Shown here: positions 71-39,020 of the stretch, in pieces
Layout of the letters: every line of letters starts with the position of its first letter
How positions within the stretch are numbered: position 1 is the stretch's first letter
Source: Draconibacterium orientale
Lineage (GTDB): Bacteria > Bacteroidota > Bacteroidia > Bacteroidales > FEN-979
Length of the DNA stretch: 39,658 nt
Assembly: GCA_020719165.1 (NCBI GenBank)
Contig: DYQT01000005.1
Coordinates: 1-39,658, forward strand
Reading direction: 5' to 3'
Notes under the pieces: model-generated
What the model was told of the DNA's origin: nothing
Database searches by the model: none
The model's input: only the letters and a program-made list of their open reading frames with translations
Made by a program: the position numbers and the translations under genes

Positions 71-1417
71 CTACCGTTCCTCCAACGGAATATAACTCCT
101 CGGCGGCTCAACAGTCTTATATGCCGGTCGAATAATCCTTCTACCGCTGATCATCTCTTCCAGCCGGTGTGCGCACCATCCGCTGATGCGGGAGATGGCA
201 AACAAAGGGGTATAAAGTTCCTTTGGGATCTTCAGACATTCATACACAAACCCGGAATAAAAATCAACATTGGGAGAGATAAGCTTATCCTGGGTACCTT
301 TGAATTCATAGAAAATTTCAGGTCCGATCCGCTCAATTGCTTCATAAAGCGCCATCTCATCTTCCCTGCCTTTTTCAATGGACAGCAACCGTGCTTTTTC
401 TTTCAGCAGGATTGCCCTTGGATCTGAAACAGTATACACGGCATGACCGAATCCATAGATCAGACCGGTTTTATCGTGCACCTCTTTGCGGGTGATTTTG
501 CGCAGATACTCAGCCACTTCATTATCGTTGGCCCAATTTTTTACATTGGCTTTGATGTTATCCATCATGTCCATCACCTGGAGGTTGGCGCCACCATGCA
601 GGGGCCCTTTCAGTGAGCCAATGGCTGCAACAATGGCCGAATAGGTGTCGGTGCCACTTGAACTTACAACACGCGTGGTAAAGGTGGAATTGTTACCGCC
701 ACTGTGCTCTGCATGTAAAACCAACGAAAGATCAAGCAGTTCGGCCTCCAGTGCAGTGTAGTCATTTCCCTTAAGCATGTAAAGGAAGTTGGCTGCCGTA
801 CTTAACTTCTTGTCGGGATACCGCACGGTAAGGGTGTCGTAATAAATCAGGTGGCGCATCGAATGATAGGAGTAAACCGCAATCGTCGAAATCTTGGCAA
901 TCAGACTGATCGATTGCCTCAGTATGTTTTCAATAGAGGTGTCATCTGCTTTTTCATCCAGGGTATAAAGAGCAAGGATTGATCGTGCAAGCATGTTCAT
1001 AATGTCCTTGCCCTTCATTGTAAGGATCATGTCGCGGTTGAAATTCTCGGGAAGCGCCCGCATTTCGGCCAAAGCCGTTGAAAACTTATCAAGCTCCTCT
1101 TTCACTGGCAGCCGGCCAAACAGCAACAGGAATACGGTTTCATCAAAACCCGGTCGCTTTGCAGCCTGGCAGCCGTGAACCAGGTCGCGGATATCTATTC
1201 CGCGGTAAATCAATTTGCCATCAATGGCTTCAAGTTTATCATTTATTTTTTCATAACCTACCACGCTGCCAACACGCGTAAGGCCAACGAGCACGCCGGT
1301 GTGATCTGCATTCCGCAGGCCCCGCTTGACATCAAATTGCTTGAATAAACTCTCTTGAATGGTACAGGATTCATCGGTCAGTTTTGCCAGATCCTGAAGA
1401 AAATTATCTATGATCAT
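71..1417 (-). CDS. gltA: Citrate synthase
   Basis: Condenses oxaloacetate with acetyl-CoA to give citrate, the entry step of the citric acid cycle, in the cytoplasm. The 448-residue product has the catalytic triad expected of the family: His274 in LHGGAN, His325 in GFGHAVY, and Asp385 in NVDFYSG. A histidine-rich HAEHSGG segment lies near residue 235. It is somewhat longer than the E. coli enzyme because of an N-terminal extension of about 50 residues, as seen in Bacteroidetes homologues. The ATG at 1417 lies 11 bp after the aconitase stop codon, so acn and gltA very probably share a transcript. No separate promoter is visible in that gap. A 2-methylcitrate synthase activity cannot be excluded from sequence, but the acn/icd neighbourhood favours the citric-acid-cycle enzyme. 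Confidence 0.95.
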   Translation of the reverse strand: MIIDNFLQDLAKLTDESCTIQESLFKQFDVKRGLRNADHTGVLVGLTRVGSVVGYEKINDKLEAIDGKLIYRGIDIRDLVHGCQAAKRPGFDETVFLLLFGRLPVKEELDKFSTALAEMRALPENFNRDMILTMKGKDIMNMLARSILALYTLDEKADDTSIENILRQSISLIAKISTIAVYSYHSMRHLIYYDTLTVRYPDKKLSTAANFLYMLKGNDYTALEAELLDLSLVLHAEHSGGNNSTFTTRVVSSSGTDTYSAIVAAIGSLKGPLHGGANLQVMDMMDNIKANVKNWANDNEVAEYLRKITRKEVHDKTGLIYGFGHAVYTVSDPRAILLKEKARLLSIEKGREDEMALYEAIERIGPEIFYEFKGTQDKLISPNVDFYSGFVYECLKIPKELYTPLFAISRISGWCAHRLEEMISGRRIIRPAYKTVEPPRSYIPLEER

Positions 1418-1428
1418 GTTTCTTGGTT

Positions 1429-3687
1429 TTAAAGGGTTTTCATGTAATTAAGGGCGCTGCCTGCCTTGAACCAATGGATTTGCAGGTCGCTGTAGCTATG
1501 ATTTATGGTAATCTCTTCCTGTGTGTGATCCGCGTGGTGGAGAACCAACACCAAGGGGCTGCCCGGCTTAAACGATTCCAGTCCAAGCAGATCGAATAGG
1601 TCGTCTTCCCTGATTTTGGCGTAATCATCACCGTTGGCAAACGTAAGTGCCAGCATGCCTTGCTTTTTCAGGTTGGTCTCGTGGATCCGGGCAAATGACT
1701 TGACTAAAACGGCTGTAACGCCCAAATGGCGCGGCTCCATGGCAGCATGCTCGCGGGATGATCCTTCACCGTAATTCTCATCTCCTACGATCATCGTTGC
1801 GATGCCTTTGGCTTTGTAATACCGCGCTGTTTTTGAAACCTCGCCATATTCTCCTGTTTCCGCATTTTTAACAGCATTGGTCTTCTCATTGAAAAAGTTC
1901 ACTGCACCCATCAGGAGGTTGTTCGAGATGTTGTCAAGATGACCGCGAAATTTCAACCATGGGCCGGCCATGGATATATGATCAGTGGTGCATTTTCCTT
2001 TGGCTTTGATCAGCAATCGGATCCCGTGCATCTCTTTCCCATTCCAGGGTGCAAAAGGTTCAAGGAGTTGCAGCCTGTCGGAATCCGGACTCACACTCAC
2101 CACTACCGCAGCTGCGTTCGCAGGAGGGGCAAGATAACCAGGATCCTTTACCTCAAATCCCTTCAATGGCAACTCTTCACCTTTTGGCTCGTCAAGTGTT
2201 ACCTGCTCACCGTTCTCATTAACCAGAAAATCAGTTAAAGGGTTGAATGTAAGGCTCCCTGCAAGGGTTAGCGCGGTAACGATCTCCGGTGATGCAATAA
2301 AACTATGGGTTCCGGCATTGCCATCATTCCGTTTGGCAAAATTCCGGTTAAATGAATTCAGAATGGAATTCTTGCGATCGGGGTTGTCCATTTTGCGAGA
2401 CCACTGTCCGATGCATGGGCCACATGCATTGGCCATGATCACCCCGCCGATGTTGTCAAATACCTCTAACAAGCCATCTCGCTCACAGGTGTAACGAATC
2501 TGCTCTGAACCCGGGGTGACGATAAACGCCGACTTCACTTTCAGCTTCTTTTCCCCTGCCTGCCTGGCCACTGATGCTGCCCGGGATATGTCTTCATACG
2601 AGGAGTTCGTGCATGAACCGATTAACCCGACTTCAAGAGTTTCCGGGTAGTTGTTCTCCTTGACAAATGCCTTGAATTCCGTAATCGGATGCGCGATGTC
2701 CGGTGAAAATGGACCATTGATGTGTGGTTCAACCGTCGAAAGATCTATCCTGATGAAATGATCATAATATAATTCAGGATTTGCAAGGACTTCCGGGTCG
2801 GGTGACAGATATCCGGCATAGTTATCGGCAAGCGCAGAAACCTCTGCCCGTCCGGTGGCATCAAGATAAGCTTTCATTTTTGCATCATAGGTGAAAACAG
2901 AACAGGTGGCGCCGATCTCGGCCCCCATGTTGCAAATCGTTCCCTTACCTGTACAGGAGAGAGATTTCGCTCCTTCACCAAAATACTCTACGATAAAACC
3001 TGTTCCCCCTTTGACCGTGAGAATGCCAGCGATTTTCAAAATAACATCCTTGGCAGAAGCCCAGCCATTGAGCTTTCCCGTAAGTTCAATGCCCATGATT
3101 TTTGGCATTTTCAACTCCAGGGGCATGCCCGACATCACATCCACGGCATCGGCGCCGCCAACACCAATAGCAACCATACCCAGTCCTCCGGCATTTGGCG
3201 TATGCGAATCTGTTCCAATCATCATGGCTCCGGGAAAGGCATAGTTTTCAAAAATAACCTGATGGATAATCCCGGCCCCGGGCTTCCAGAAACCAATGCC
3301 GTATTTGGCCGATACGGTTTCCAGAAAGTCATAAACCTCCTTGTTTTGGACCATCGCGGTAGCAAGGTCGGTTTTTACACCAAGCTGTGCCTGAATGAGG
3401 TGGTCGCAATGCACGGTTGAAGGAACAGCTGCACTGTCGCGGCCTGCAGTCATAAATTGCAGAAGCGCCATCTGTGCAGTGGCATCCTGCATGGCTACCC
3501 GGTCGGGTAAAAAGTTGACATAATCTACTCCCCTGTGGTAGGGCTCCGATGGATTTAAATCGAATAAATGTCCGTATAGAATCTTTTCTGTAAGTGTCAG
3601 AGGCTTGTCAAGCAATTCTTTTGCCTGGGAAACACCTTTGGTGATTTTCTCGTATGTGCGATGTATTGATTTGATATCTAATAACAT
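1429..3687 (-). CDS. acn: Aconitate hydratase, mitochondrial type
   Basis: Isomerises citrate to isocitrate through cis-aconitate using a [4Fe-4S] cluster. The 752-residue protein carries the three cluster ligands: Cys359 in GSCTNSS, and Cys422 and Cys425 in [10 protein letters not shown]. The N-terminal segment with [18 protein letters not shown] and [14 protein letters not shown], together with the length, matches the mitochondrial-like aconitase class (known from Bacteroides fragilis) rather than AcnA/IRP or AcnB. The swivel domain with the [15 protein letters not shown] motif is complete. It is the first gene of an acn-gltA operon and is divergent from the synthetase-fusion gene, with 117 bp between the two starts. 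A weak promoter-like TACATTTA lies on the minus strand at 3740-3733. Confidence 0.96.
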
Positions 3688-3804: not shown

Positions 3805-6800
3805 ATGATGGACCTCGAAATGCTCCTCGAAAAATGGATGGTCTCTGGTAAACCAGCTTCTGAAAGCCATAAAATTGCTGTCAAAATTCTCACAGAATCA
3901 GAGAATGTTTTCTGCAAACAGCAGGAGCGCCAATTATCTCATACCTTCTGGTTCAACTTTCTCGATACAACAAAAAATACTGCATTTCTGAAGGCATTAG
4001 ATTCTGACACTAACCGGAAGCGGTGGACTGAGGTCGTTTTCAGGCTCCTGCAATACACCAATTATAATCTGCGAAACATGATGGAACAGCGGGTTGCTGA
4101 ACATCCCGCCTATGTGTTGTTTAAAGATATGTCGTCGGCAGGTGCTATTGAATGGACCTACGAACAAATTTATCGCCACCTGAGGGAAATCGCAAGTGTG
4201 TTTTATAGAGCCGGTTCTGATGCACCCCGGGTAGCCTTTTATACAGAAAACTGCCTGGAAGGGGCATGTACCGACCTGGCATGCCTCATGTTCGATATTT
4301 ACGACACACCTGTCAGTCCACACTTCAAAATCGATGTATTGCTTCATATTTTCAATGAATTAAAGATCAATATTGCACTGGCCGATACGGAAGAACGAAT
4401 AATGATGCTCCAACAGCTCAGGGGAAAAGCAGATGTAAAATTTTCTATTTATTCACTGCAGGCAGCTACAGCTAAAACAAAGGATGTTCCCAGCCTGGTG
4501 GAGGAGTGCAAGAAAATTTCGCGATGGGATATGGATGCGATCCTTGGAAATCTTCCTTTCAAACCAAACAACCAGGTGGCCACAACCATGTTTACTTCAG
4601 GCAGCACCGGATTACCCAAAGGCGTTTCGTTCTCCATCTACAATATCATTTCAAAAAGATTTGCCCGGGCAGCTGCGTTACCTGAAGTAGGAGAGGAGGT
4701 GTTTCTGTGTTACCTGCCTCTTTTTCATACGTTTGGCAGATACCTGGAGATGACGGGTACCATATTTTGGAACGGTACTTACGTCTTTGCCGGTAATACT
4801 TCCACCGAAACTTTGCTCTCTTTGTTCCCAAAAATCAACCCCTCCGGTTTTATCAGTATCCCCCTCCGGTGGCAGGAACTCTTTGACCGGTGTCAGGAAC
4901 GAATCAGTCTTGTTGGCAGTGATGACCTTCGCGAGCAGGCAGTTCGGGAGGTGGTTGGACACAGATTGCATTGGGGTTTGTCGGCAGCAGGGTATTTGGA
5001 TCCTGAAGTCTTCAGGTTTTTCAATCACCACGGGATACATCTGAACAGTGGATTCGGCATGACCGAGGCTACCGGGGGAATCACCATGACACCACCAGGA
5101 AAATATAAAGATTTTACAGTAGGAATGCCATTGCCAGGCGTCCAAACCAGGCTCTCGGGTGGTTCTGAACTTGAGATCAGCGGACATTATATCGGGCGCT
5201 ATCTTGAACAGGTAGGTCCCGGCGATTTCATCCCCTATCCGGTATCACCCGAAACCGACCAGTGGCTTTCGACTGGCGATGTTTTTAAAATTTCCGCGGA
5301 TGGATATTACCAAATCGTCGACCGGGTGAAGGATATTTATAAAAACAACCGTGGTCAAACAGTTGCTCCACAGGTTGTTGAAAAGAAGTTTAATAAAGTC
5401 CCTGGCATCCAAAACGTATTTCTTGTGGGCGACAACCGCCCTTACAACGTGCTGCTCATCGTTCCCGATAAAACCGATTCAATTTTCAATGCCTTGAATG
5501 ATGGCAATATTGAAGAATACTTTCACCAAATCGTCATGGCTGCGAACATGGATGTGGCACCTTACGAAAGGGTAATTAATTATACATTGCTCGATCGTGA
5601 CTTTAGCAGTGAAAAAGGAGAACTCACACCCAAAGGTTCTTTTAACCGGAAGACGATCGAAGTTAATTTTAAAGAGATCATCGAGTCGCTGTATCAAAGT
5701 AACATGGTGCAAATTAATGCCGGCGATTTTACAATTTCAATTCCAAAATGGTTTTTTCGCGACCTTGGCATCCTGGAAACTGATATTCGGTATGATCGCA
5801 ACTGGCTGATTAACCGTCATAACGGGTCAACTTTATATGTCAGGAAAACCAAAGGGAAATGGTTTCAACTCGGGAATTTAAAATACCATATTGAGTCGTC
5901 CAACATTGATCTCGGACTTTTAAGCCGTCAGCCAAAAATATGGATAGGTAACCCGGCAATGATCACTTTTTGTCCGGTAAAAGAGGGGTGGGACATGCCC
6001 ATGCACGGAGTCTCCCCAAGTGTTTACCTGCCAGGTTTCAAACAAATAGATGTCAAGCATTTCCCGGTTATTAAATCTGTTCGCGATCAGCAATTGATTG
6101 AGGTGAATCAACTGCTTTTTCGCAGTTTTTTTAGCCCGCTGGATGAAGCATACAAAGCGACAGATGAACTTGGGAAAATATTGATCCATGCCGAACCCCG
6201 GCTGGCGGTTGTTCTCCGGCACAGGCTTGAATCCCTTGCCTATCATCCGGAGGAGGAGATTCGTTGTCTTGCCTACCGTCTCATTCTGCTGAAGGCGCCA
6301 AATCCCGAGGATATTCAGAATATGCCATCCTTTATTGAATCAGGTCTCTCGTTTCTCAACGAAAAATCAATCAAAGAGATCGCCTCAGGGAATTTCGGCA
6401 AGCACCGGCTCGATGCGCTGAAGCAACGACTTTACTGGTACCGGACACATCTGCGTTGGCCGGCTTCAAAAAAACATCAGCGGGCATTTGGTGATGTGCT
6501 TGAAATGTTATACAACTTTGCAGTAATGCATCTTGAGTATTATGTTCCCGTCCGGGCCGAACTTTCGCGGTGGATTCTGCATAAACGGGATGGCAATCTT
6601 TCAAGAAAAGCGGAAAAATTATTCTATTCACTGGCGGCTGTTTTTGAGAAGGAGATGAATCAGAAATCGCACCGTACCAACTTGTCAGAGTGGAAGTCAA
6701 AGCTGGTTTTCGAACATGGTGTTTCCGATGTGGAAAAGCAACGCATTACCAAAATATTTCAGACAACCTCTTTCCTGAAGGAGAGCATCATATTGACATT

Positions 6801-8394
6801 TAATGAAAATGACTTTGATTTGAAGAATGTTGTTGACAAGGGAATCTGGATATTGCGGCTGCTCGCGTTTAAGGAGTTCAAACATTACCGGCTTGCCATA
6901 AATACCGTTGAAGGCAAACATTTTGATCTGCACATGGTTTTAAGCGAAAATCCCGATTTCAGGCCGCGGCCTGAAACGTTTTACTGGTTAGCTTCTTTGG
7001 CTGGGTTCCCTTACGGGCCGGCTGTGGCGCCAATGCTCGGCAGCAGCAGGCCAAATCTTGGTGTTTTAACCACCCAGTATATCGGAGGCCTCACAACATG
7101 GGATAAGATTCGGGAATTGTCCGAAATCCACCGTTCCTCAGGATTTATCAAAGGTAATGTTTGGAAAAAGATATTCATCAAATCTTTTGCCGTAATTTTT
7201 AAAGCCTGGCATCATAGTGGTTACCAGATTGTTCCGGGTGCCATATCCCCGGCAAATGTGGCAATTCCTGAGATGGATTTTCGTGAAAGCGCCGTCATTT
7301 TATCACTTTCCGGATGGTCTGAATATAAAAATACCTTGTCGCTGATCGAACCGATGCTTCAGGATTATTACTGTAAAACTGCCTCTATATATCCATGGTG
7401 CCGGAGCCAGCTCGATGTATCCTGGATTTTTGATGCCTGTATCGAAGCGCTGGGTAAGGAGGAAGCCTCTGTGTTTCTGCGAAAATTACAGCATGACCTT
7501 AAATCAAAATCGGTGACCTGTTTCGACACCACAGAGTTCAAAGTACATGTTGATCTTTATCTGAAAAATTCCGATAAACGCTACTATTTACCTGTTGCTT
7601 TGTTTAGTGCGATTGATCAGTACCAGGATTGGTACAAAATGAACCCGCTTACCACGGCAGCAGCCCGCGAACAAATTTGTATTGAGCTGCTCGAACTATT
7701 TAAACTGCACCAATATGCAGAACTTGTGCGGTATTTTCTTTATCGGCATACCTTTTTTTCAAATTCCCCGGATGAGATACATACTGCTTTCGAAAAGCTG
7801 TTGTTACGCATGGAAGAGCAGCCTGACGGAATGGCGATTCAGTTGATTGAACTTTCCGATCTTCAATCATGCCTGCATGATCCTGATGATAAAAATGTTT
7901 TTAGCCGGATGGTATTTCCGCGCCTGCAGGGCGAACAGGGTTTCGATTTGATGAAAATCGGTGAAAATCAAAAGGAACATCTTGTCGTTCGATTCCCGTT
8001 CCAGGACAAGTCGGGCAGAAACTTTATGCTGAGAGAACCAGTTTCAGCGCGTGAAATTGGACAGTTGTATCAGCTTTTTTTTCGGGAGAATTATCCCAAG
8101 GAGATTTCTGATACCGATCATCAGTTCGTGCTGATCGACGACGATGAAAAAATTGTTGGAGGTATGACCTTCCGATACATTGAAGACAACAACATTTTGC
8201 TTGATGGTCTTGTGGTCAATTCAACACTGCATGGCAAAGGCATCGCCTCAAGCATGATTGAAAATTTCTTTGCGAGCATGGCCGCCCGGGGTGTAGGGGT
8301 CGTTAAAGCGCACTTTCTTTTTGGAAACTATTATCTGAAACATTTCTTTGAGGTGGACAAGAAATGGGGAGCGCTCATAAAGAACTTAAAATAG
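3805..8394 (+). CDS. Fusion protein: acyl-CoA synthetase-like (ANL) + kinase-like region + GNAT acetyltransferase
   Basis: The 1529-residue product has at least three parts. Residues about 90-640 form an adenylate-forming (ANL) domain: the AMP-binding loop TSGSTGLPKG is at 264-273, the STGD motif ends at Asp492, DRVKDIYKNN starts at 506, and the C-terminal TPKGS lysine is Lys610. This layout resembles long-chain acyl-CoA synthetases that activate a carboxylate with ATP. Residues about 640-930 are undefined and helix-rich. Residues about 1040-1170 resemble a protein-kinase fold, with a hinge-like VLTTQYIGG followed by PGAISPANVAI at 1144-1154. In that segment a kinase catalytic HGD would be replaced by Pro-Gly-Ala while Asn1151 is kept. 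Residues about 1414-1529 are a GNAT acetyltransferase with an acetyl-CoA loop near HGKGIA (1476-1481). No signal peptide is visible, so it is probably cytoplasmic. ATG codons occur at both 3805 and 3808. The substrate is unknown. The ANL and GNAT calls are firm; the kinase-like call is inference. Confidence 0.85.
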   Translation: MMDLEMLLEKWMVSGKPASESHKIAVKILTESENVFCKQQERQLSHTFWFNFLDTTKNTAFLKALDSDTNRKRWTEVVFRLLQYTNYNLRNMMEQRVAEHPAYVLFKDMSSAGAIEWTYEQIYRHLREIASVFYRAGSDAPRVAFYTENCLEGACTDLACLMFDIYDTPVSPHFKIDVLLHIFNELKINIALADTEERIMMLQQLRGKADVKFSIYSLQAATAKTKDVPSLVEECKKISRWDMDAILGNLPFKPNNQVATTMFTSGSTGLPKGVSFSIYNIISKRFARAAALPEVGEEVFLCYLPLFHTFGRYLEMTGTIFWNGTYVFAGNTSTETLLSLFPKINPSGFISIPLRWQELFDRCQERISLVGSDDLREQAVREVVGHRLHWGLSAAGYLDPEVFRFFNHHGIHLNSGFGMTEATGGITMTPPGKYKDFTVGMPLPGVQTRLSGGSELEISGHYIGRYLEQVGPGDFIPYPVSPETDQWLSTGDVFKISADGYYQIVDRVKDIYKNNRGQTVAPQVVEKKFNKVPGIQNVFLVGDNRPYNVLLIVPDKTDSIFNALNDGNIEEYFHQIVMAANMDVAPYERVINYTLLDRDFSSEKGELTPKGSFNRKTIEVNFKEIIESLYQSNMVQINAGDFTISIPKWFFRDLGILETDIRYDRNWLINRHNGSTLYVRKTKGKWFQLGNLKYHIESSNIDLGLLSRQPKIWIGNPAMITFCPVKEGWDMPMHGVSPSVYLPGFKQIDVKHFPVIKSVRDQQLIEVNQLLFRSFFSPLDEAYKATDELGKILIHAEPRLAVVLRHRLESLAYHPEEEIRCLAYRLILLKAPNPEDIQNMPSFIESGLSFLNEKSIKEIASGNFGKHRLDALKQRLYWYRTHLRWPASKKHQRAFGDVLEMLYNFAVMHLEYYVPVRAELSRWILHKRDGNLSRKAEKLFYSLAAVFEKEMNQKSHRTNLSEWKSKLVFEHGVSDVEKQRITKIFQTTSFLKESIILTFNENDFDLKNVVDKGIWILRLLAFKEFKHYRLAINTVEGKHFDLHMVLSENPDFRPRPETFYWLASLAGFPYGPAVAPMLGSSRPNLGVLTTQYIGGLTTWDKIRELSEIHRSSGFIKGNVWKKIFIKSFAVIFKAWHHSGYQIVPGAISPANVAIPEMDFRESAVILSLSGWSEYKNTLSLIEPMLQDYYCKTASIYPWCRSQLDVSWIFDACIEALGKEEASVFLRKLQHDLKSKSVTCFDTTEFKVHVDLYLKNSDKRYYLPVALFSAIDQYQDWYKMNPLTTAAAREQICIELLELFKLHQYAELVRYFLYRHTFFSNSPDEIHTAFEKLLLRMEEQPDGMAIQLIELSDLQSCLHDPDDKNVFSRMVFPRLQGEQGFDLMKIGENQKEHLVVRFPFQDKSGRNFMLREPVSAREIGQLYQLFFRENYPKEISDTDHQFVLIDDDEKIVGGMTFRYIEDNNILLDGLVVNSTLHGKGIASSMIENFFASMAARGVGVVKAHFLFGNYYLKHFFEVDKKWGALIKNLK

Positions 8395-8405: not shown

Positions 8406-8451
8406 CACTTTGATTTTCTATTTTGATTTCACACACACTAACTTATATATT

Positions 8452-9723
8452 ATGAACGGAGAAAAAATTACCCTGATCAACGGAAAACTCAATGTTCCCG
8501 ATAATCCAGTTATCCCTTTTATTATTGGTGACGGAACCGGTCCCGACATCTGGCATTCCAGTGTACGGGTTTTGGATGCTGCTGTTGAAAAGGCATATGC
8601 AGGTAAGCGGAAAATAGCATGGCGTGAGGTTTTAGCGGGCGAAAAGGCATTCACGCAAACCGGCGAATGGCTCCCTCAGGAAACCCTCGATGTTATTCAT
8701 GAATATCTCGTGGCCATTAAAGGGCCACTCACTACACCGGTTGGAGGCGGAATCCGGTCGCTGAACGTTGCCTTGCGCCAGATACTTGACCTCTATACCT
8801 GTGTCAGACCTGTTCGCTATTTCGCGGGTGTTCCCTCGCCGGTTAAGCATCCGGAAACAACCGATATGGTTATCTTTCGTGAGAACTCTGAGGATATTTA
8901 TGCCGGTATTGAATGGATGCAGGGAACCCCTGAAGTGGAAAAAGTCATTAAATTTCTGATTGGCGAAATGGGAGTGAAAAAAATTCGTTTTCCTGAAACC
9001 TCCTCTATCGGCATTAAACCAGTATCTAAAGAAGGAACAGAGCGATTGGTGAGGGCTGCAATTCTGTTCGCAATAACCCATCATAAACCATCTGTTACGC
9101 TGGTGCACAAAGGCAATATCATGAAATTTACCGAAGGGCAATTCAAACAATGGGGTTACGAACTTGCTGAACGGGAATTTAGTGATAAGGTGTTTACCTG
9201 GCTTACCTATGATAAAATCAAAGCATCCGAGGGCGAAATCGCTGCTGAGAAAGCACAACAAGAGGCAGTTGCCGGCGGGAAAATCATTGTCAAAGATGTT
9301 ATTGCCGATGCCTTCCTGCAGCAGATACTCACACGGCCTGCCGAATATTCAGTTATTGCGACCCTTAACCTCAATGGTGATTACATCTCAGATGCACTGG
9401 CTGCCATTGTAGGAGGTATTGGAATTGCCCCGGGTGCCAATATCAACTACATCACCGGACATGCGGTTTTTGAAGCTACCCATGGAACAGCACCGAAATA
9501 TGCAGGAAAAGATCAGGTAAATCCCGGATCGGTTATATTATCAGGTGTGATGATGCTCGAATATATGGGCTGGAATGAGGCCGCAAAGATGATCGTCAAG
9601 GGTCTTGAAGGAGCAATTAAGAACAAACGTGTAACTTACGATTTCGAAAGGCTCATGGAAGGTGCAACAAAACTTAAATGTTCTGAATTCGGAACCGAAA
9701 TTATTGCAAATATGCAGGCCTAA
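8452..9723 (+). CDS. icd: NADP-type isocitrate dehydrogenase
   Basis: Oxidatively decarboxylates isocitrate to 2-oxoglutarate, completing with acn and gltA the oxidative branch that feeds glutamate synthesis. From the ATG at 8452 the protein has 423 residues, close to the E. coli Icd length. A TTG at 8410 would add 14 residues with no family support. Visible family features are [10 protein letters not shown] near the N-terminus, the substrate loop [12 protein letters not shown] with Ser103 (the position phosphorylated by AceK in E. coli), [15 protein letters not shown], and the C-terminal cofactor region with [20 protein letters not shown]. The stop codon overlaps the stop codon of the convergent porP/sprF-like gene by three bases, leaving no room for a separate terminator. 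Confidence 0.96.
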
Positions 9724-10820
9724 TAGAAGGTCGGACATTCCAGCGCGCTGCCACCTCTGCGGCCACTACCGCCGGGTACATATCCGCCTCCACCGCCTCC
9801 TCCGAAAATCGAAAGATTGTCAAACTCAAGTATCAGGCTGATTTCATGTGCACCACCAGTGCCCTGGAGATCTCCTGATACTTGAAGATCATAGCTGTAC
9901 ATGAATTTAATATTCATGTCTTCATAAAAAGAATACTTGTATCCGGCTACCAGAGCCACAGCGCTGTTAACAACTCCGGTCATGGTCGATTTATACCAGG
10001 CACCTATATATATGTTATACTTCAGCAAATTAAGACCTACCTGCAGGGAGTTCAGATTTGCCTGATTTTGATATATTCCTCCGAGATTGATCTTCAGGGG
10101 TTCATCACTTGCACGTGAACTCATGGAAGAGCCTCCCGGATCGGTGGAGATGATCAAATCAAACTGTCCTACCCACTTACGGGGATATAGAGAGCTGCCG
10201 GTTGACAGAAAACTTACATCCGGTTTAAACAGGTGATCAACTCCCAGTCCGATGTTACCGCTGATGTTGCCACCCGGATTGATGAATTGCAAAACGCCTC
10301 CTATGCCAAAATCAGGAACTACCCGTTTATTGGCATCCGGCGGGATAAAGGTCGAACTGTAAACATTGCCGTATTTCGGATCGAGCTGGCTTGCAAACAC
10401 CAGGTCATCCCAATTCACCCTGCGCTGCATGATGCCCGCTTTTATTCCGATTTGGGTCACCATGAAACTCGTGATTGGAATGCGTACACCTATGGTAAGG
10501 GCAGCGCCAAAATTATTGATCAGTCCGGCGCCCGGAGTATCCTGGTTGATTTGGATCCCGATGCCGCCTGAACCCGGAAGACTTCTGTCACCCAAATCAG
10601 CGGAAAAATAATAGGACTTGAAAGAAATCGGGAGACTGGGCCATTGATTGCGGTAGATAAATCGTGCCCTTACCCCGGAGTTGAGGCCTGTATATGCAGG
10701 GTTAAAGTAAATCGGTGTGCTGAAATACTGCGAGTAATTCATATCCTGGCTCTCAGCACCCGGAATAAAACCAAGTAAAATCAGAACCACTAAAATTGGA
10801 AATATAAAGCTGTTTTTCAT
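9720..10820 (-). CDS. PorP/SprF family type IX secretion outer-membrane protein
   Basis: The 366-residue protein starts with a signal peptide (hydrophobic stretch at residues 7-22, cleavage near AES-Q). It then shows the family hallmark: [19 protein letters not shown], followed by [14 protein letters not shown]. PorP/SprF proteins are beta-barrel-like outer-membrane partners that help T9SS export or anchor specific adhesins with gliding-type C-terminal domains. It is the second gene of a minus-strand operon, 18 bp downstream of the giant PKD adhesin, which matches the usual SprB-SprF style pairing. The C-terminus has an unusual glycine-rich run (about eight glycines in FGGGGGGG, then GGSGRRGG) before ECPTFY. 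Its stop codon overlaps that of icd on the other strand. Confidence 0.92.
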
Positions 10821-10838: not shown

Positions 10839-13800
10839 TTATCGGATTAAAGTAACGGTACCCATGGTCTTGTTCGTATTGCCGAATCCAATATCAGATC
10901 CTTCCCATTGTGAATCATCAACAAATAAGGCGTTGATCCTCCACATATAATTACCCTGGGGCATTACCGCGCCTTCAAAGGTGCCATCCCAGCCTTCAGC
11001 CGGCATTCCTTTATCGTCCAGTTTTGAAGATTCCCACAAAAGGTGTCCCCACGAATCAAACACCGTAACATGATACTGTTTCAGATTAACCCCGACAGGT
11101 TGGAATAACCTGATGCCAAGGTTGGTGCTGGTGGGTGAAAACGCATTGGGAACGTAAAGGCCTTTGAATAACAACTCATAAGTGTAAAAAGTAGTGTCGG
11201 AACAATCAAATTGGTTTAGCGAAATAAGTTTAATGGTATAGGTGCCATCTTCAGTATAAAGCGCTACCGGATTTTCCTCTGTCGAGTATTTCTCATTCCC
11301 GAAATCCCACTTGTAACTTTCTGCGCCGGTAGATACGTTGGTGATTTTTACCTGGCCCTGCTTTCCGTTATATCCGTTGAGAACCGTGAAAGAACTTACA
11401 GGTGTTATGTTTACCTTCACAGTTGAGTCAACAGTGTCGATACAACCATAATGGTCTTTTACAATCATTCTTACCGAGTAATCTCCTGTACCTGGATAGC
11501 TGTAGCTCGGATCTTGCAATGTGGAGCTGCCTTTGAGTGAGTCACCAAAAGACCAGTGCCAGAATCCAAGCGTGGTATCAGATATCACCGATTTGTCGGT
11601 AAAGAAGGTAGGATCACCCACGCAGGCTGCTGTGTTTTCATAAATGGCCACCGGCAATCCATAAACGCGGGTTGGCTTGATTAACGAATCCATACAACCG
11701 AATTTGTTGTTGATGACCAGCTTTACGTTGTAGATGCCGGCAGTATCATAGGTATGGGTCGGATTTTTAATGGTTGAAGTATCTGTGGCCTTTGGGCTGA
11801 ATGTCCAGTCCCAGTTTGCAACACCCTGTCCGAAGGTTTTTGAGGTGTCCCTGAAAAGAGATACCTGATGCAAACACACGGGGACATTGGAGAAGTAGGT
11901 TATTGGTGTGGGATGAACCTTCACGGTGGAGGCCATGTTGTCGATGATGGTGGTGCCATTGACCAGCGCCTGAATCTCCAGTGTCACATTGTAGCTGCCA
12001 CTATCTGCATAGGTATGCATGATGGGTGTGTGGTGTGTCGTGTAAGTAGTATCCGGAGTTCCGTCGCCCCATGACCAGCGCCATTGGTTGATACGCGTAA
12101 CAGGCAGGGAACTGTCGGAGAAGGCAATGTTGTATCTGGCACACAAGGTGTCTTTATAGGTAAACCCGGCTTTAATACACGGGAACCGTTGTACACTTTG
12201 TGTGATGCTGTCAACACATCCGTTGGTGTTTGAAATGATCAGGGTTACCGGATATATTCCTGCGTTGACATAGAGGTGTGAGGTGTCACCATTACCCGGG
12301 GGGGTGATGATCACATCGGGTGTTCCGTCGCCAAATACCCAGTGCCAGCTTGCAATGGTTCCTGAGCCGCTGCTAATGGTTGAATCAGTGAAATAAACCG
12401 TACTGTCGCATGGGGTTGATAAGAAGGTGTAGTAAGGTTGCGGCGCTTCGTAAACCCTGACTTCGCGGTAAACGCTGTCGACACAGTTGTCGGAGTTATA
12501 GGCTTTCATTTTAACGATGAAAACTCCCGGATGGGTAAAGGTATGCATCGGGCGATATAACTGCGAAGTGTTGCTTGGCCCTGAAGTAGGATCTCCGAAA
12601 TTCCAGGTAACACTATAAAGCGTATCACCGGGAGTTTTATTCACCGGGGTGAAATGTGTGATATACCCCTCGCACACGGTATCATTGCTAAAGGCGAATG
12701 AGAATCCTGGTTTGACAAAAACGCTGTCAACAATGGTATCCTGGCATCCGTAGGTATCGGTTACAATCAGGGTAACCAGATATGTAGTGTCGGTCACAGG
12801 AAAGACATGAGATGGGTTGGGAATGTTAGATGTATAGCCAGGCTGAAAAATCCATTCCCTCTGGGCGATTGTTGATCCGGTTGCCGTTGAAATGTCGTGG
12901 AAATCTACTTTTCCTTTCGGACAGAAGTATCCTGAATGGTTAAATGCTGCAACAGGAGCAGGCCGTGAAATGACCGGGATGGTAACTGAATCGTCGCAAT
13001 TCGCAAGGTTGGTTACCTTGAGCCGAACCTGGTATGTTCCTGCGGTAGTATAGATATGAGTTGGATTCTGGATGGTTACAGCAGGCGATCCGTCACCGAA
13101 GTCCCACAACCAGTTTTTAATACTGCTCCCGGGTGCCGTTGACATATCGGTGAATTGAGTTTCTGTGTTCACGCATGAAGCAGAATATTGGAACATGGCC
13201 GCAGGCTTGGGGTTAACCACAATCAACATGGAGGTATCGTGAACACATTGAGTCGAATTGGTAACATGCAGTGTAACGGTATAGGTTCCCTGGGTATTAT
13301 AAATATGTGTGGGATCCTGCAACGTAGAGGTGTTTTGGGCTCCGCTGGCCAGGTCGCCAAAATTCCATAACCATGCTGCAATGGTTCCTGATGAGGTGGT
13401 GGAGGCATCAGTAAACTGCGTCGGACTGGCCAGACAAGAGGTGTCGGCTGAGAAAATCGCCACAGGCGCTGCATTTACAGTCACTGTTTTCCCTCCTGCT
13501 ACGCTGTCGTTACATCCATTCGCATTGGTAACCAATAATCTGACGGTGTAAGTTCCTCCGGCAGAAAACTCATGAACCGGGTTTTGCAAGATGGAAGTAT
13601 TGTTGGCACCAGAGGCAGGATCTCCGAAATCCCAGCTCCAGTTCGTAAGCGGCGCACCTCCATTAAGCTGTGATAAGTCGGTAAATTGTAGTGGCAGCAA
13701 CGCACATCCGCTCGTTCCGAAACTGAAATTTGCCAGGGGGTGGAAACCGATTTGAACCTGGGTAATCTTCTCCCTGGTACATCCATCGGATGTGAGTATG

Positions 13801-16800
13801 GTTAGCTTGACATTATAATTGCCGCCAGTGGTGTACTTATGCTTGACGTTTTGGTTTGCCGGGAAAATAATAGGTCCAACTATAGTGCCATCCCCGAAAT
13901 CCCATGTCCATTCTTCTATGTAACCATGAGGCGTTGACGATAGATCGGTGAATTGCACAGAGTCTCCTGCGCAATTGGGTGTTGAATATTGAAACGATGC
14001 AACCGGCTGACCTAAAACAAGTACCTGTTTCGTTGTATCTTTCAAACAGCCAACAGAGTTCATTACCGTCAGCTTCACATTGAAAGTACCCGATGTTGCG
14101 TATAAGTGAGTAGGGTTGGCGGTAGTAGATGTTTGGCCATCGCCAAAATCCCATAAACGGGTTGCGATTGTTCCTCCGGTTGAAAGATCGGTAAAGGTGG
14201 TCAGGCTGTTCTGACAAACAGTGTCGGCGCTAAAGTTAGCCAGAGGCCTTGCGTTAACAATTACTGCCGGCAGTGGTAGCAGCGTGTCTTTACATCCGTT
14301 GCCATTGGTAACGATCAAAGTGATGTTGAAGGTATTTGCCGAAGAAAACTGATGTATCGGGTTTTGAATCGTAGCAAAATTGTTCATGCCCGAAGGTGGA
14401 TCGCCAAAATTCCATGACCATGACTGAATGCTGCCTCCTCCGTTGGTTTGCGATAAATCGGTGAATTGAACGGGTTGATTGTCGCACAAAGTGGCTGAAT
14501 ATGAGAAGTTGGCAATCGGTGCAGGAACACTGGTAACCGTTTTTGATATCACGTTAACACAGCCTGCAGTGGTTGTAACTGTGAGGGTTACAACATGCGA
14601 AGTGGCTGTTCCTGCAAAAATGTGGGTCATGTTCGGGTTGGCCGGGAACAAAATCGGCGGAGTGGTTGATCCATCACCAAAATCCCACTCCCATTTGTTG
14701 ATGGAAGATGAAAATCCGGTTGGCACAAACGACTGGTTCACGAAATTTACCGGATTTCCAACACAGCTTGCTGCAGAAAAGGAGAAATCAGCAATCGGTT
14801 TTGGATTGACCAATACCTGTTTCGTTACCTGGTGAATACATCCATTGGAATTAGATACCGATAATGTTACACTATAGGTGCCATAAGTTGCGAAGATGTG
14901 CTGTGGCGATTGTGAAGTGGAAGTTCCGCCATCTCCAAAGTTCCATGCATAAGATACAATGGTAGTCGCTGGAGGGATGGTGGTGGATGCATCGGTAAAG
15001 GTGGTCGGGAAACCTTCGCACGCTTCGGTAAAGGTGAAATTGGCTGTCGGAAGCGGATTTATGGTAATGGTATCGGGTGGAGCTGAATTTATGCAACCAC
15101 TTGAACTTGTAACAGTTAATGTAATAATAAAATCGCCGGCTGCTGTAAATGCATGCGATGGATTTTGCAGTGTTGAAGTATTGTTGGCTCCTGATAACGG
15201 ATCTCCGAAATTCCAGCTCCAGGTTTGAATGCTGCCACCGCCATTATTTTGAGTTAAATCGGTAAAAGTAACTTGCTGTCCAAGACACAACGTATTCGAA
15301 TAACTGTAGTTGGCAATGGGGGATGGGATGCTGTTGACCGTTTTAAAAATCGAATCGATGCATCCATTGGTTGTATATACCTTTAATTTAACAATATGCG
15401 AGGATGCCAATCCCAAGAAAGTATGAACGATATTTGGGTTGGTCGGAAAATTAATGGTCGTAACTGGCGATCCATCACCAAAATCCCAATCCCAACGGTT
15501 GATGTAGGATGAAAATCCCGGTGGAACAAAGGATTGGTTGAAAAAACTAACCGGATTGCCAACACAACTGGCCGGCGAAAATGTGAAATCGGGAACAGGT
15601 TTGGGGTTCACTGTAACCTGGTTGCTGACAGTATGAATACATCCATTTGAATTGACAACCTCTAATGTCACGGTGTAGGTTCCATATGCAGCATAAGTAT
15701 GAAGCGGGTTCTGAAGGTTCGACGCTCCGCCGTCACCAAAATTCCAAGCATACGAAATGATAGTTGTCGCATTTGGTATGGATGTGTCTGTAAATGAGGT
15801 TGTAGTGCCTTCGCAGGCAGCAGTATTCGTGAAGCTGGCTACCGGTAAAGGATTAATGGTAACCAAAGCGGTGTCGGATTTTGTACACCCATTGGTACTC
15901 ACGATATTTAAAATTACAGTAAATGTTCCACTCGCGGTAAATGCGTGGGTTGGGTTTTGCAACGTAGATATGTTGTTCGCTCCTGATAACGGATCGCCGA
16001 AATCCCAATTCCAGTTTTGTATGCTGCCTCCGCCATTGGTTTGCGACAGGTCGGTAAATTGTACCGTTTGTCCGAGACAGGTTGTATTGGAGTGGCTAAA
16101 ATTTGCAATGGGCGATGGGATACTGTTAACTGTTTTTACAATGGAGTCAGAGCAATTCGTTGTTGTGATTACAGTGAGTTGCACAAGGTGGGAAGTGGCT
16201 GTTCCAAGGAAGGTATAAACAATATTGGGTGAACTCGGGTAGTTTATCACCACCGGTGCCGATCCGTCGCCAAAATTCCAGATCCAGGTTTTGATAGAAC
16301 CTGTAAAACCTGACGGGATAAAAGAGAGGTCGGTAAATGTTACCGGATTGCCAATGCAACTTGCCGCTGAAAAGGTGAATGAAGGAACCGGATTCGGATG
16401 AACCGTTACCTGTTTTGTTACCGTGCTGATACATCCGTTGGTATTGACGATGGTGAGTGTTGCATTGTAGATGCCGAACGTTGCATAGGTATGTGGTGGT
16501 GATTGCAATGTTGAAGTTCCGCCATCGCCGAAAGTCCAACTGTAAGAGGATATTGCCGTTGCATTAACGATGGAAAGATCTGTGAAATGTGTTGTTCCGC
16601 CGGCACAGGCTGAATCGGCCGAGAAATTGGCCACCGGAAGTTTATTAATCACAACCGGCAAAATAACCGAATTGCTGCAGCCATTGGCATTGGTAACAAT
16701 CAGGTTAACGCTGTAAGTCCCGTCGAGCAGGAAGGTATGCGAAGGACTGGGTGAAGTAGAGGTATTGTTGACCCCTGATCCGGGATCGCTGAAATTCCAC

Positions 16801-20329: not shown

Positions 20330-21907
20330 CTAATTGTCAAATCGAAGTTTGCTAAAATAAAAAACCAATCTTTTATTATTGGTTTCCAGTGCAATATTTT
20401 TTATTTCCTGGTATCCAAAACTCAGAAAATAATTTGCATACCAATGGTTTAGTATTCCTTTTGTCTCGGAAATGATTTTATCATCGGGGTATAATTTATC
20501 CAGGGGGGAAAAATCAAGTTTTTCAACCACTTTGCTTGTCTGGATAATTTTAGAACCTATCTTTCCATCACTGATGTAACATAACACCAGTTCGTTGCCG
20601 TTAGGGTAAACCACAACATTAGGAGATAAATCCGATGACACCAGATTTCTTATTTCCATATTATTGTCCCAGAGTAATTTGCCTTCAGTGTCAAATCCTG
20701 CAACAATGGTGTTGAAAAATCGGTAGCCATCAAATACCGAATAGCTGTTGGTATAAGGCCTGCCGTAAAAGTCAAAATCAGTAAAACTCTCTGTATGGTA
20801 TTGAGGTGAATAAAGCTCGGCGGTGAGAATGTATTCATCATGCAAAAAAATCAGGTCATGTAGCACGACCGAAAAATCCAGAGAATATTCAGATAGCGTT
20901 TTTTTCTTTTTCAGGGCTTTCTTCTTCAGGTTAATAATATCCTCTTCTCCAACAATTGAATGGGCATTCTTCAACTCAAGAAAGTTATAAAAACTGATTG
21001 ATTTTTGTATGCCTGTTTTAACCTGACTCGAAAAAAAACCTGTTGTCTCACCGATTTGCCTGTTTTTCGATGATGAATTTGTCACTCCTTGCCCATATGT
21101 CCCAAGCAATAATTCGGCAGTGGGACTTGTTGAAGCTACCTTTACCTGTGTTAAAGACCGTTCTTCATTTTGTGTGCCAATTAGCGCCTCATGTTTTATC
21201 AACCCATTCGTATCGTAACGAACAAAATAGTATTCGACATTTTTTTTGGTCACCGTCCGGTTCACAATAGCCGAAACAGAATTGGAAGAGGTGTCGGGGC
21301 TCATCCATAATACAGAGATCTGGCTGCCGTTTCCCAGCGGAAATGCTTTATTAACTCCCTGCTTTAGCTCGACATTCAATATTTTCCCAGCCTGGTCTTT
21401 GGTGTTGATTCCCAGCCAGGCGCGGTTTTTCTGAATACCAAATGCATCCACTACCGCACCAGTTTCCAAAATCCCGGTATTCAAAATCAAGGTTCCATTG
21501 TTGGGCACGATCCTGAGCATTTCAAACTTATTCTCTGTGTTTTTTAATTTCCCGGTACTCACGAATAACAATGCTGCGGTATCTTTTGTAATTTGATGGA
21601 ACCGAAAATCCTGATCATTAAACAGCGGAACACATTTTACCCAAATCTGCTGAAAGTTCGTATCGTAACATGTGAAATACCAATTTGTTCGTGCTGCATC
21701 AGCGACTTCCTGGCTTCTGAAAAACAGGATCAACCCATTGGTTCCGCACGGAATAATTCGGTATGTTTCATTGACCGAATTGGCTGGTATTTCAATGCGC
21801 AAGGGCATGTCGGTCGGATTTTTCGCCATGTTTTGCTGCGAAAGCAGTGATTTTCCCGGGTAGCCGGCCAGGATAAATATAAGGAGTATAAGTTGCCGCA
21901 TGAACAT
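20330..21907 (-). CDS. Secreted protein of unknown function, possible beta-propeller
   Basis: The reading frame is open further upstream, but the start is placed at the ATG at 21907 (or the in-frame ATG at 21901). A signal peptide follows immediately (MRQLILLIFILAG), and the upstream terminator and promoter lie between 21923 and 21963. The product is about 525 residues. It contains several segments of hydrophobic-aromatic strands with turns (for example WYFTCYDTNFQQIW and YYFVRYDTNGLIKHE) that suggest a WD/propeller-like beta fold, but no named domain was recognised. No T9SS C-terminal domain or lipobox is visible, so it is probably periplasmic or outer-membrane associated. A lysine-rich patch (LKKKALKKKKTLSEY) lies in the middle. 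Confidence 0.7.
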   Translation of the reverse strand: MFMRQLILLIFILAGYPGKSLLSQQNMAKNPTDMPLRIEIPANSVNETYRIIPCGTNGLILFFRSQEVADAARTNWYFTCYDTNFQQIWVKCVPLFNDQDFRFHQITKDTAALLFVSTGKLKNTENKFEMLRIVPNNGTLILNTGILETGAVVDAFGIQKNRAWLGINTKDQAGKILNVELKQGVNKAFPLGNGSQISVLWMSPDTSSNSVSAIVNRTVTKKNVEYYFVRYDTNGLIKHEALIGTQNEERSLTQVKVASTSPTAELLLGTYGQGVTNSSSKNRQIGETTGFFSSQVKTGIQKSISFYNFLELKNAHSIVGEEDIINLKKKALKKKKTLSEYSLDFSVVLHDLIFLHDEYILTAELYSPQYHTESFTDFDFYGRPYTNSYSVFDGYRFFNTIVAGFDTEGKLLWDNNMEIRNLVSSDLSPNVVVYPNGNELVLCYISDGKIGSKIIQTSKVVEKLDFSPLDKLYPDDKIISETKGILNHWYANYFLSFGYQEIKNIALETNNKRLVFYFSKLRFDN

Positions 21908-21922
21908 GTTGCTTCTGGATGA

Positions 21923-21930
21923 CAAAAGTA
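21923..21930 (-). promoter_or_regulatory. Promoter -7 box for the 20330-21907 gene
   Basis: Minus-strand TACTTTTG matches TAnnTTTG and lies 15 bp upstream of the ATG at 21907 and 21 bp upstream of the one at 21901. Such a short leader supports the later start choice. It sits directly after the T-tract of the upstream gene's terminator. Confidence 0.6.
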
Positions 21931-21963
21931 GAAAAAAAAAGGTCGCCTGTTTAAAGCGACCTT
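21931..21963 (-). terminator. Intrinsic terminator of the T9SS cargo operon
   Basis: On the minus strand AAGGTCGC pairs with GCGACCTT (8 bp perfect stem, 9-nt loop), followed by an uninterrupted run of nine Ts counting the last stem bases. It lies 18 bp after the stop codon of the 536-residue cargo gene. It is the clearest protein-gene terminator in the window. Confidence 0.88.
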
Positions 21964-21981
21964 CTCTTTCACTGTAATCGG

Positions 21982-38483: not shown

Positions 38484-39020
38484 ATGAAACAGATAATTCC
38501 ATTACTACCGGTTTTTATAATCCTGTTTTTTTTCGCCGGAGTTATTGATGTCAGCAGTAGCGACAGAGATCAGCTGGCTTTCGCTCCCAATGCATCTCCC
38601 ATTTGCGATACTGTTCCGGAACTGAATCAAAAAATAGTTGAACTGGTGCGGCAACAGATCGGAAAAAAAGTCGATCGTGGCGAATGTTGGGATCTTGCGG
38701 CCCTTGTGTTGAATCAAACCGGGGCAGAATGGGACGGGCAATACAACTTTGGGAAAAAGGTTGATCCCGAAAAGGAGTGTATTTATCCCGGAGACATCAT
38801 TCAGTTTGAAGGTGTCAGAATTAAATATACCAGAGAACGAGCTGTGCACGAAGAGACCATGGGACACCACACTGCCGTTATCATTGCCGTGAAATCCAAA
38901 GGTGTTTTTGTACTGGCACATCAGAATACCGGTTTTTCTGGTCGCACGGTGGGGCTCAGTGATCTTGATTTATCCACAATTATTAAAGGTAAATTTCAGA
39001 TTTTCAGGCCGGAACTTTAA
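38484..39020 (+). CDS. Small exported protein with cysteine-peptidase-like Cys/His layout
   Basis: The 178-residue protein begins with a hydrophobic segment (MKQIIPLLPVFIILFFFAGV) that is probably a signal peptide. The mature part has Cys68 in GECWDLA at the start of a helix, a strand with PGDIIQFEG, and His128-His129 in GHHTAVIIAV, ending in HQNTGFSGRTVGLSDLDL. Cys at a helix start followed by His on a strand is the layout of NlpC/P60 and CHAP papain-like enzymes, and also of the cysteine-proteinase-fold domain named after fungal BBC1/AIM3, which this resembles. It might cut peptidoglycan or peptides, or only bind; activity is inferred. It follows the T9SS cargo gene by 7 bp. Confidence 0.7.
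   Translation: MKQIIPLLPVFIILFFFAGVIDVSSSDRDQLAFAPNASPICDTVPELNQKIVELVRQQIGKKVDRGECWDLAALVLNQTGAEWDGQYNFGKKVDPEKECIYPGDIIQFEGVRIKYTRERAVHEETMGHHTAVIIAVKSKGVFVLAHQNTGFSGRTVGLSDLDLSTIIKGKFQIFRPEL

Follow-up and report, generated by a model that had tools for sequence, protein, structure and literature searches.

The window, the whole stretch of 39,658 nucleotides analysed here, carries a gene encoding a large fusion protein, and in bacterial genomes this gene is associated with citrate synthase. Judged from its sequence and predicted structure, the protein combines an ANL domain with intact ATP-binding motifs, a kinase-shaped core without conserved aspartates and a GNAT domain with a CoA-binding motif. 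The wide conservation of the fusion and the adjacency of citrate synthase suggest an undescribed control of entry into the citric acid cycle. We tentatively propose that the fusion is a conserved multidomain regulatory acyltransferase, working in the manner of the Pat enzymes without being one of them, with citrate synthase as its likely partner; this is the explanation that we prefer, and we would not yet call it probable.

The gene is a single open frame at 3805-8394 (+) with an ATG start, encoding 1529 aa, exactly the uninterrupted frame given in the preliminary description of this DNA. Pfam matches to AMP-binding, AMP-binding_C_3 and Acetyltransf_1 bore out the claim that an ANL part and a C-terminal GNAT domain lie in one chain (Table 1). 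Nothing was matched by Pfam between AMP-binding_C_3 (516-632) and Acetyltransf_1 (1430-1515) in the window protein, and the intervening stretch, earlier described as undefined, comprises about 760 residues without a Pfam match. The reported citric acid cycle context is real, the fusion being flanked by genes for citrate synthase, aconitase and NADP isocitrate dehydrogenase. The start codons of the fusion and of the aconitase face away from each other and are separated by 117 bp, and the likely ATG of the isocitrate dehydrogenase lies 57 bp past the fusion stop; the fusion and this dehydrogenase are probably co-transcribed.

Table 1 Position of the fusion gene, its parts and its neighbours in the window
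Feature	Coordinates	Strand	Evidence
Whole fusion gene, 1529 aa: N-extension / ANL / beta / helical / kinase-like fold / helical / GNAT	3805..8394	+	
N-terminal extension, residues 1-90, without Pfam match, weakly conserved	3805..4074	+	
ANL N-terminal domain AMP-binding, residues 94-451	4084..5157	+	Pfam E 4.5e-45
ANL C-terminal domain AMP-binding_C_3, residues 516-632	5350..5700	+	Pfam E 5.8e-12
Residues 610-612 (KGS): invariant Lys610, Ser612 at canonical A10 lysine position	5632..5640	+	Family alignments
Small beta-rich domain, residues 640-740	5722..6024	+	AlphaFold2 model, alignment
All-helical domain (HEAT-like is our own naming), residues about 760-960	6082..6684	+	Predicted secondary structure, PI3K/mTOR chains among Foldseek matches of the whole model
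Protein-kinase-like fold (pseudokinase-like), residues about 976-1237	6730..7515	+	PRPK/Bud32 structure matches, motif positions
Helical domain between kinase fold and GNAT, residues about 1240-1370	7522..7914	+	AlphaFold2 model
GNAT domain, residues 1395-1529	7987..8391	+	Pfam Acetyltransf_1 1430-1515 (E 2e-7), YhbS match
Citrate synthase (PRK14032 type), about 2.4 kb upstream of fusion, divergent	71..1417	-	
Mitochondrial-type aconitase (TIGR01340), divergently transcribed	1429..3687	-	
NADP isocitrate dehydrogenase, likely start ATG 8452; ORF 8410-9723	8452..9723	+	

Several other genes of the window stood out. A 2967-aa protein (10839-19742, -) contains 27 PKD_4 stretches and a sub-cut-off match to the type IX secretion model CHU_C; a PorP/SprF protein (9720-10820) adjoins it, and a large repeat protein akin to it recurs near the fusion at 23 loci in 2 clades. 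Two frames on the minus strand, 20330-22180 and 21982-23592, overlap by 199 bp, the first without a Pfam match and the second with a type IX secretion tail. A 178-aa protein (38484-39020, +) matched the AIM3/BBC1 C-terminal cysteine-proteinase fold (E 4.9e-16), which is unexpected in a bacterium.

Searches with the whole protein detected the fusion in 31 of 61 related genomes, its own counted: 17 of 19 in the genus (own included), 12 of 18 elsewhere in the family and 2 of 24 elsewhere in the order. In family member G036 the gene is split between two contigs, and a TAG interrupts one of the pieces. Fusion fragments aside, the other matches listed in the 61 genomes were at most 35% identical, and therefore no stand-alone close relative of the ANL domain was seen there. 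A profile made from the middle region only (A3) recovered relatives in 30 of 393 genomes of the order, belonging to 17 of 207 genera and again including the window's genome. Open frames measured 1518-1555 aa in 26 of these 30 genomes and were shorter in G120 (two matches), G283, G294 and G356; the loci retrieved for three of these genomes (L046, L058 and L064) are shorter than the flank requested, which suggests that contig ends explain the short frames. The two middle-region matches of G120 are on separate contigs (C231 and C89), and the gene may be duplicated there. At the level of the phylum, a middle-plus-GNAT profile (A2) found 21 of 395 genomes. Four of them are the window's own and 3 close relatives; the other 17 belong to another class, and their open frames measure 1515-1638 aa. 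Thirteen of these 17 divergent relatives were aligned and were 35-39% identical in the ANL domain and 15-25% in the middle, and co-linear throughout.

Scanning named genomes with two peptide patterns yielded 375 relatives, the best 80 of which were analysed as loci. The span from ANL to GNAT was present in all of these 80 except five at contig ends (L119, L148, L154, L176 and L188), so that the domain order is constant among the homologues analysed. The labels of the 80 loci, which are submitters' names for metagenome bins, at least one apparently wrong, include Bacteroidales/Bacteroidetes, Chlorobiota, Ignavibacteria, Kapabacteria, Acidobacteria, Thermoanaerobaculia, Aminicenantes, Zixiibacteriota, Calditrichaeota and 'Deltaproteobacteria'. 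L121 (SACF01000011.1), labelled Alphaproteobacteria, has a Bacteroidales-type locus nearly identical to L122 and is probably a mislabelled bin. L147, for which the frame was not recovered, was dropped from the residue counts on the 80 loci. Occurrence in 31 of the 61 related genomes and in wider relatives from the order, the phylum and the named genomes led us to reject a chance long open frame, and the carriers in genus, order and phylum show that this is not the lone fusion for which the preliminary description had left room. No PADLOC match to an anti-phage defence system was obtained at E 0.01, and the plasmid collection contained no match to the fusion at E 1e-50.

Membership of the ANL superfamily was indicated by Pfam scores over the cut-offs for both the N-domain (154.5 vs 29.9 bits) and the C-domain (46.5 vs 20.8 bits). 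TSGSTGLPKG was verified at 264-273, where it had been reported, and a further ANL motif, GFGMTEATGG, starts at residue 416. Among 96 distinct rows (two sets, the window protein counted once), residues 264-266, 269, 272, 273, 417, 418, 420, 421, 492, 507, 509, 513 and 514 were identical; one row with Leu at Met419 was the sole exception among the ATP-site and hinge residues checked. The ANL domain scored highest with models of long-chain synthetases (PRK06187, FadD11) without reaching their cut-offs, and stand-alone paralogues encoded in the window's genome shared about 30-32% identity with it.

At the other end of the protein, the AlphaFold2 model of the GNAT domain aligned with YhbS (4rs2_B) at Z 16.4 over 132 residues and 1.8 A in VIA-align, which was applied to the GNAT and kinase parts. 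The Z-score to 4u5y_A, a Pat GNAT solved with an acetyl-CoA synthetase C-domain, was 13.6, and many GNATs scored higher. CoA-binding motif A reads HGKGIA in the window protein, with His rather than Arg or Gln at its first position; most relatives have Q/K/H there (R in the divergent class) followed by x-x-G-x-G/A/S. The CoA-binding Gly1479 was kept in 74 of 80 rows and in 13 of 13 divergent rows. Fold and motif A together place the domain in the GNAT superfamily.

The region between the two enzymatic parts was modelled together with the GNAT domain (AlphaFold2, residues 640-1529, 890 residues; mean pLDDT 88.4, pTM 0.81). From its N-terminal end, the model shows a small beta domain followed by an all-helical one; next comes the kinase-like domain, and a further helical domain lies between this and the GNAT. 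Residues 640-740 carry many of the most conserved positions of the middle. Foldseek searches with the whole model returned PI3K and mTOR-type chains at the top, followed by CaMKII, CDC7 and Bud32/PRPK, and matches to viral models were mainly kinase-like and GNAT. VIA-align gave Z 13.9 to Bud32 with 214 residues aligned. Modelled alone (AF2 pLDDT 90.4), the kinase part aligned with PRPK 7szc_A (Z 15.1, 207 residues, 3.5 A) and Bud32 4ww7_A (Z 15.0, 218 residues, 3.5 A), and the predicted structure is a bilobal fold of the protein kinase superfamily.

The catalytic-loop and DFG aspartates expected of an active kinase are not conserved. With motif positions assigned by motif order (…PGAISPANV…) rather than by residue-level superposition, the catalytic-Asp position 1146 is Ala in 29, Ile in 10, Ser in 8, Phe in 7, Leu in 6 and Val in 5 of 80 rows; since these make up 65 of the 80, Asp can occur in at most 5. 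The DFG-type position 1169 is Asp in 4 of 80 rows, the loop Asn1151 is present in 80 of 80, and Asp occupies the catalytic position in 2 of 6 divergent-class rows printed (L095 and L099). We take PGAISPANV to be comparable with the GDxxxxN loop of PRPK/Bud32-like kinases. No kinase was found when PDB sequences were searched with a profile of the kinase part, and a profile of the middle returned only a chance match, Annexin A7 (E 0.29). In 18 members of the middle-plus-GNAT alignment, only GNAT models were matched by Pfam in more than one member. The label 'kinase-like' thus holds for the fold and fails for the sequence profile and the catalytic aspartates, and this part of the modelled protein is best called a pseudokinase-like domain.

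A fusion of a donor-making with a donor-using domain could also serve biosynthesis in two steps: the ANL domain would activate a fatty acid and the GNAT, fed in cis, would N-acylate a small amine or amino acid to form a lipid or signal, the proximity of citrate synthase reflecting co-regulated acetyl-CoA metabolism. The leaning towards long-chain models and the invariant ATP-site residues, needless in a pure sensor, are consistent with such an enzyme. However, the top neighbour of the fusion is citrate synthase, no biosynthetic gene recurs outside one class, and the conserved core, roughly 760 residues with helical and pseudokinase-like parts, resembles a scaffold or sensor. Squalene-type genes lie near the fusion in 6 loci (L095, L096, L100, L101, L105 and L107), in which what we take to be squalene/phytoene synthase-like and FAD-dependent desaturase-like genes precede the citrate synthase-fusion pair. 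We regard a biosynthetic role as possible but doubtful.

The preliminary description had treated Lys610 as the catalytic lysine of the ANL C-domain and proposed that the GNAT might act on it. The lysine is invariant in 93 of 93 family rows; its assignment did not stand. The ANL catalytic lysine, called A10 and acting in adenylation according to PMC11255334, falls on residue 612 when the family is aligned with 4 stand-alone paralogues (2 from the window's genome and 2 from one relative; motif …S/TPTLKL(K/R)R…) and with carboxylic acid reductases. All 93 rows have Ser or Thr at residue 612, and the fusion consequently lacks the A10 lysine of ordinary acyl-CoA synthetases of FadD/Acs type; going by the alignments, Lys610 may stand in for it. 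If the GNAT acetylated its own ANL C-domain at Lys610, acyl activation would stop when acetyl-CoA is plentiful. The invariance of Lys610, the GNAT similarity to 4u5y_A (exceeded by many GNATs) and the precedent of AcuA, which places and acetylates Lys549 of AcsA (PMC11255334), speak for such regulation in cis. The analogy to Pat and AcuA is not supported at the target, as AcuA modifies the A10 lysine whereas the corresponding residue is Lys in none of the 93 rows, and we consider self-acetylation unlikely.

To describe the genome neighbourhood, all frames of at least 100 aa within 3.5 kb of the fusion, excluding those inside it, were clustered without preselection at 97 loci (the best 80 of the 375 named-genome loci, 16 further loci and the window), 55 of which have 3 kb on both sides. 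Citrate synthase was the commonest neighbour, present at 33 of 97 loci and in 12 of 33 fusion clades (55% identity linkage); the runner-up cluster reached 5 clades. Most of the 12 clades sit in one divergent class and are not independent, and a FastTree tree with 90 of the 97 rows (7 dropped) puts the adjacency at about four or five points. The neighbouring citrate synthases are of two kinds, the PRK14032 type of the window and a Si/eukaryote-like PRK09569 type, which are 25% identical to each other. Ten of the 13 divergent-class loci have citrate synthase upstream on the same strand, at a gap of 71-370 bp in eight (counted up to the stop codon that precedes the fusion frame) and of 2-3 kb in L103 and L104. 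It is likewise upstream on the same strand in L141 and L148 (0.8-1.9 kb), divergent in L150 and convergent in L151 and L154. Next to the fusion of the Acidobacteria-like relatives, no citrate synthase was detected.

The arrangement of all three cycle genes is more restricted. The window's clade accounts for 29 of the best 80 loci. In 25 of these 29 a divergent aconitase lies within 500 bp, and in 26 of 29 isocitrate dehydrogenase follows on the same strand within 160 bp, 2 of the 3 misses being at contig ends; the citrate synthase arrangement of the window recurs in its relatives. The aconitase-fusion-isocitrate dehydrogenase order was seen only in this clade and was rejected as a general feature. 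The neighbourhood first described therefore holds for the window's clade, whereas in distant clades citrate synthase recurs; similarly, of the suggested link to neighbours such as isocitrate dehydrogenase, the cycle context survives but the signal favours citrate synthase.

Co-occurrence pointed to the same enzyme. The sample comprised 295 genomes of the order, 24 holding the fusion by middle-profile search and 271 taken as fusion-free from that search; all Fisher p-values given below are raw in that they ignore shared ancestry. Any citrate synthase (PF00285) was present in 24 of 24 fusion genomes and 141 of 271 others (p 4e-7). The Si type, scored at E 1e-100 or better, was found in 119 of the 295 genomes, including all 20 fusion genomes from other families than the window's and 98 of 271 others (p 5e-9), the any-type association being the weaker of the two. 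At genus level the counts were 12/12 vs 66/169 for the Si type (p 2e-5) and 15/15 vs 95/169 for any type (p 3e-4), and in the phylum sample 20 of 20 fusion genomes other than the window's had the Si type. Of the four fusion genomes that the window's family contributes to the order sample, one (G022) carries the Si type and three (G000, G020 and G027) the window type, which in G027 lies beside the fusion (L123). Among the six remaining of the 30 fusion genomes of the order, G356, G383 and G423 have the Si type and G025 the window type (L128), while no citrate synthase of any type was found in G362 and G422, which are fragmented bins (82% and 92% complete). Citrate synthase is therefore present in 28 of 30.

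Exceptions occur in both directions. The only citrate synthase found in G002, G012 and G013, which belong to the genus and carry the fusion, is of another type and on another contig. A Si-type citrate synthase without the fusion occurs in family members G003, G021, G028, G031 and G034, the last four also having aconitase; in G009, G023 and G024 neither fusion nor citrate synthase was found. Mitochondrial-type aconitase was not enriched (15 of 30 fusion genomes vs 163 of 363 others, p 0.36), and a tie of the fusion to the whole oxidative branch was rejected on this ground.

These data also bear on whether the co-localisation is generic, reflecting inherited gene order and lifestyle with no functional tie to citrate synthase. 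The small number of tree placements, the Acidobacteria-like members without an adjacent citrate synthase and the two fusion genomes without any are what such an origin would predict; the varied orientations, the involvement of two distantly related citrate synthases and the lack of enrichment of aconitase, another marker of the cycle, argue against it, and we judge it quite unlikely. It is very doubtful that the fusion merely activates a carboxylate (acetate, propionate or similar) to supply citrate or methylcitrate synthase with acyl-CoA, its GNAT and kinase-like parts being structural or vestigial: adjacency and the intact ATP site would fit, but the GNAT fold is confidently predicted, Gly1479 is conserved, and the ANL domain is nearer to long-chain than to acetyl-CoA synthetases.

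Collectively, the constant architecture, the motifs, the folds, citrate synthase as top neighbour and in co-occurrence, and the precedents of sensor-GNAT enzymes (PMC8556138) support the reading of the fusion as a regulatory acyltransferase; the few tree places with adjacency, the Acidobacteria-like relatives, G362 and G422, the unlinked citrate synthases of G002, G012 and G013, the citrate synthase genomes without fusion and p-values that ignore shared ancestry weigh against it. In such a regulator, the ANL domain would bind a carboxylic acid and, with the displaced Lys610, probably adenylate it, and would thereby report on or supply acyl-CoA. The helical and pseudokinase-like core could act as ligand sensor and partner-binding scaffold, and the GNAT would move an acetyl or acyl group onto lysines of a partner protein, the best candidate being citrate synthase, through which acetyl-CoA is committed to the cycle. 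The working mode would resemble that of Pat types I-III, with an AMP-forming instead of an NDP-forming synthetase as the acyl-CoA arm. A more specific and more speculative version, which we think rather unlikely as it stands, is an undescribed class of one-chain regulators that occurs in Bacteroidota, Acidobacteriota and neighbouring phyla: acyl-CoA made or sensed by the ANL domain would be relayed through the pseudokinase core to a GNAT that acylates citrate synthase, fatty-acid status directly gating entry into the cycle.

If this is true, citrate synthase in several environmental bacterial groups has a dedicated, genome-linked regulator, carboxylate activation and protein acylation are coupled in one polypeptide, and a pseudokinase joins the parts list of bacterial acyltransferases. 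The long-standing question of how enzymatic lysine acylation is targeted to central metabolism outside Pat and AcuA would become directly testable. Whatever its target, the fusion defines a conserved family of large multidomain proteins, about half of whose length no Pfam model covers.

The ANL, GNAT and kinase folds are all known, and their combination and its link to citrate synthase appear undescribed. A full-text literature search covering few subscription papers gave no characterised ANL-kinase-GNAT protein or family, in line, within that coverage, with the preliminary description, which knew of no such system. Compared with long-chain synthetases of FadD11/FadD15 type, with which it shares the ANL domain, the fusion has PKGS/T in place of PTLK, an N-terminal extension and about 890 extra C-terminal residues. 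Residues 976-1237 share the fold of the atypical kinases PRPK/Bud32 and RIO (Z 15 and about 12), but identity is about 10% (up to 15% for RIO), the aspartates are not conserved, and the kinase part is not recognised by sequence profile. The AcsA/AcuA pair of Bacillus subtilis also consists of an ANL synthetase and a GNAT acting on each other; these are separate proteins in which, according to PMC11255334, the A10 lysine is acetylated, whereas the fusion family has Ser/Thr there. Type III sensor-GNATs (cAMP-Pat, ACT-GNAT/AAPatA and MxKat) similarly have one or more extra domains ahead of a C-terminal GNAT. The putative sensor of the fusion differs in being a kinase-like fold, and Pfam detected no cNMP, ACT or Rossmann sensor domain in the window protein or the 18 alignment members. 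Closest in plan are Pat types I and II (PatZ/SePat and SlPatA), which join a large domain derived from an acyl-CoA synthetase to a GNAT. These enzymes sense acyl-CoA in cis, as the fusion may also do. Their synthetase domain is NDP-forming and catalytically inactive (PMC8556138). The fusion is not a Pat of type I or II, because Pfam matches its synthetase part to AMP-binding domains and detects no NDP-forming one; at about 1500-1640 aa, it instead joins an AMP-forming ANL domain with intact ATP motifs to a kinase-like core.
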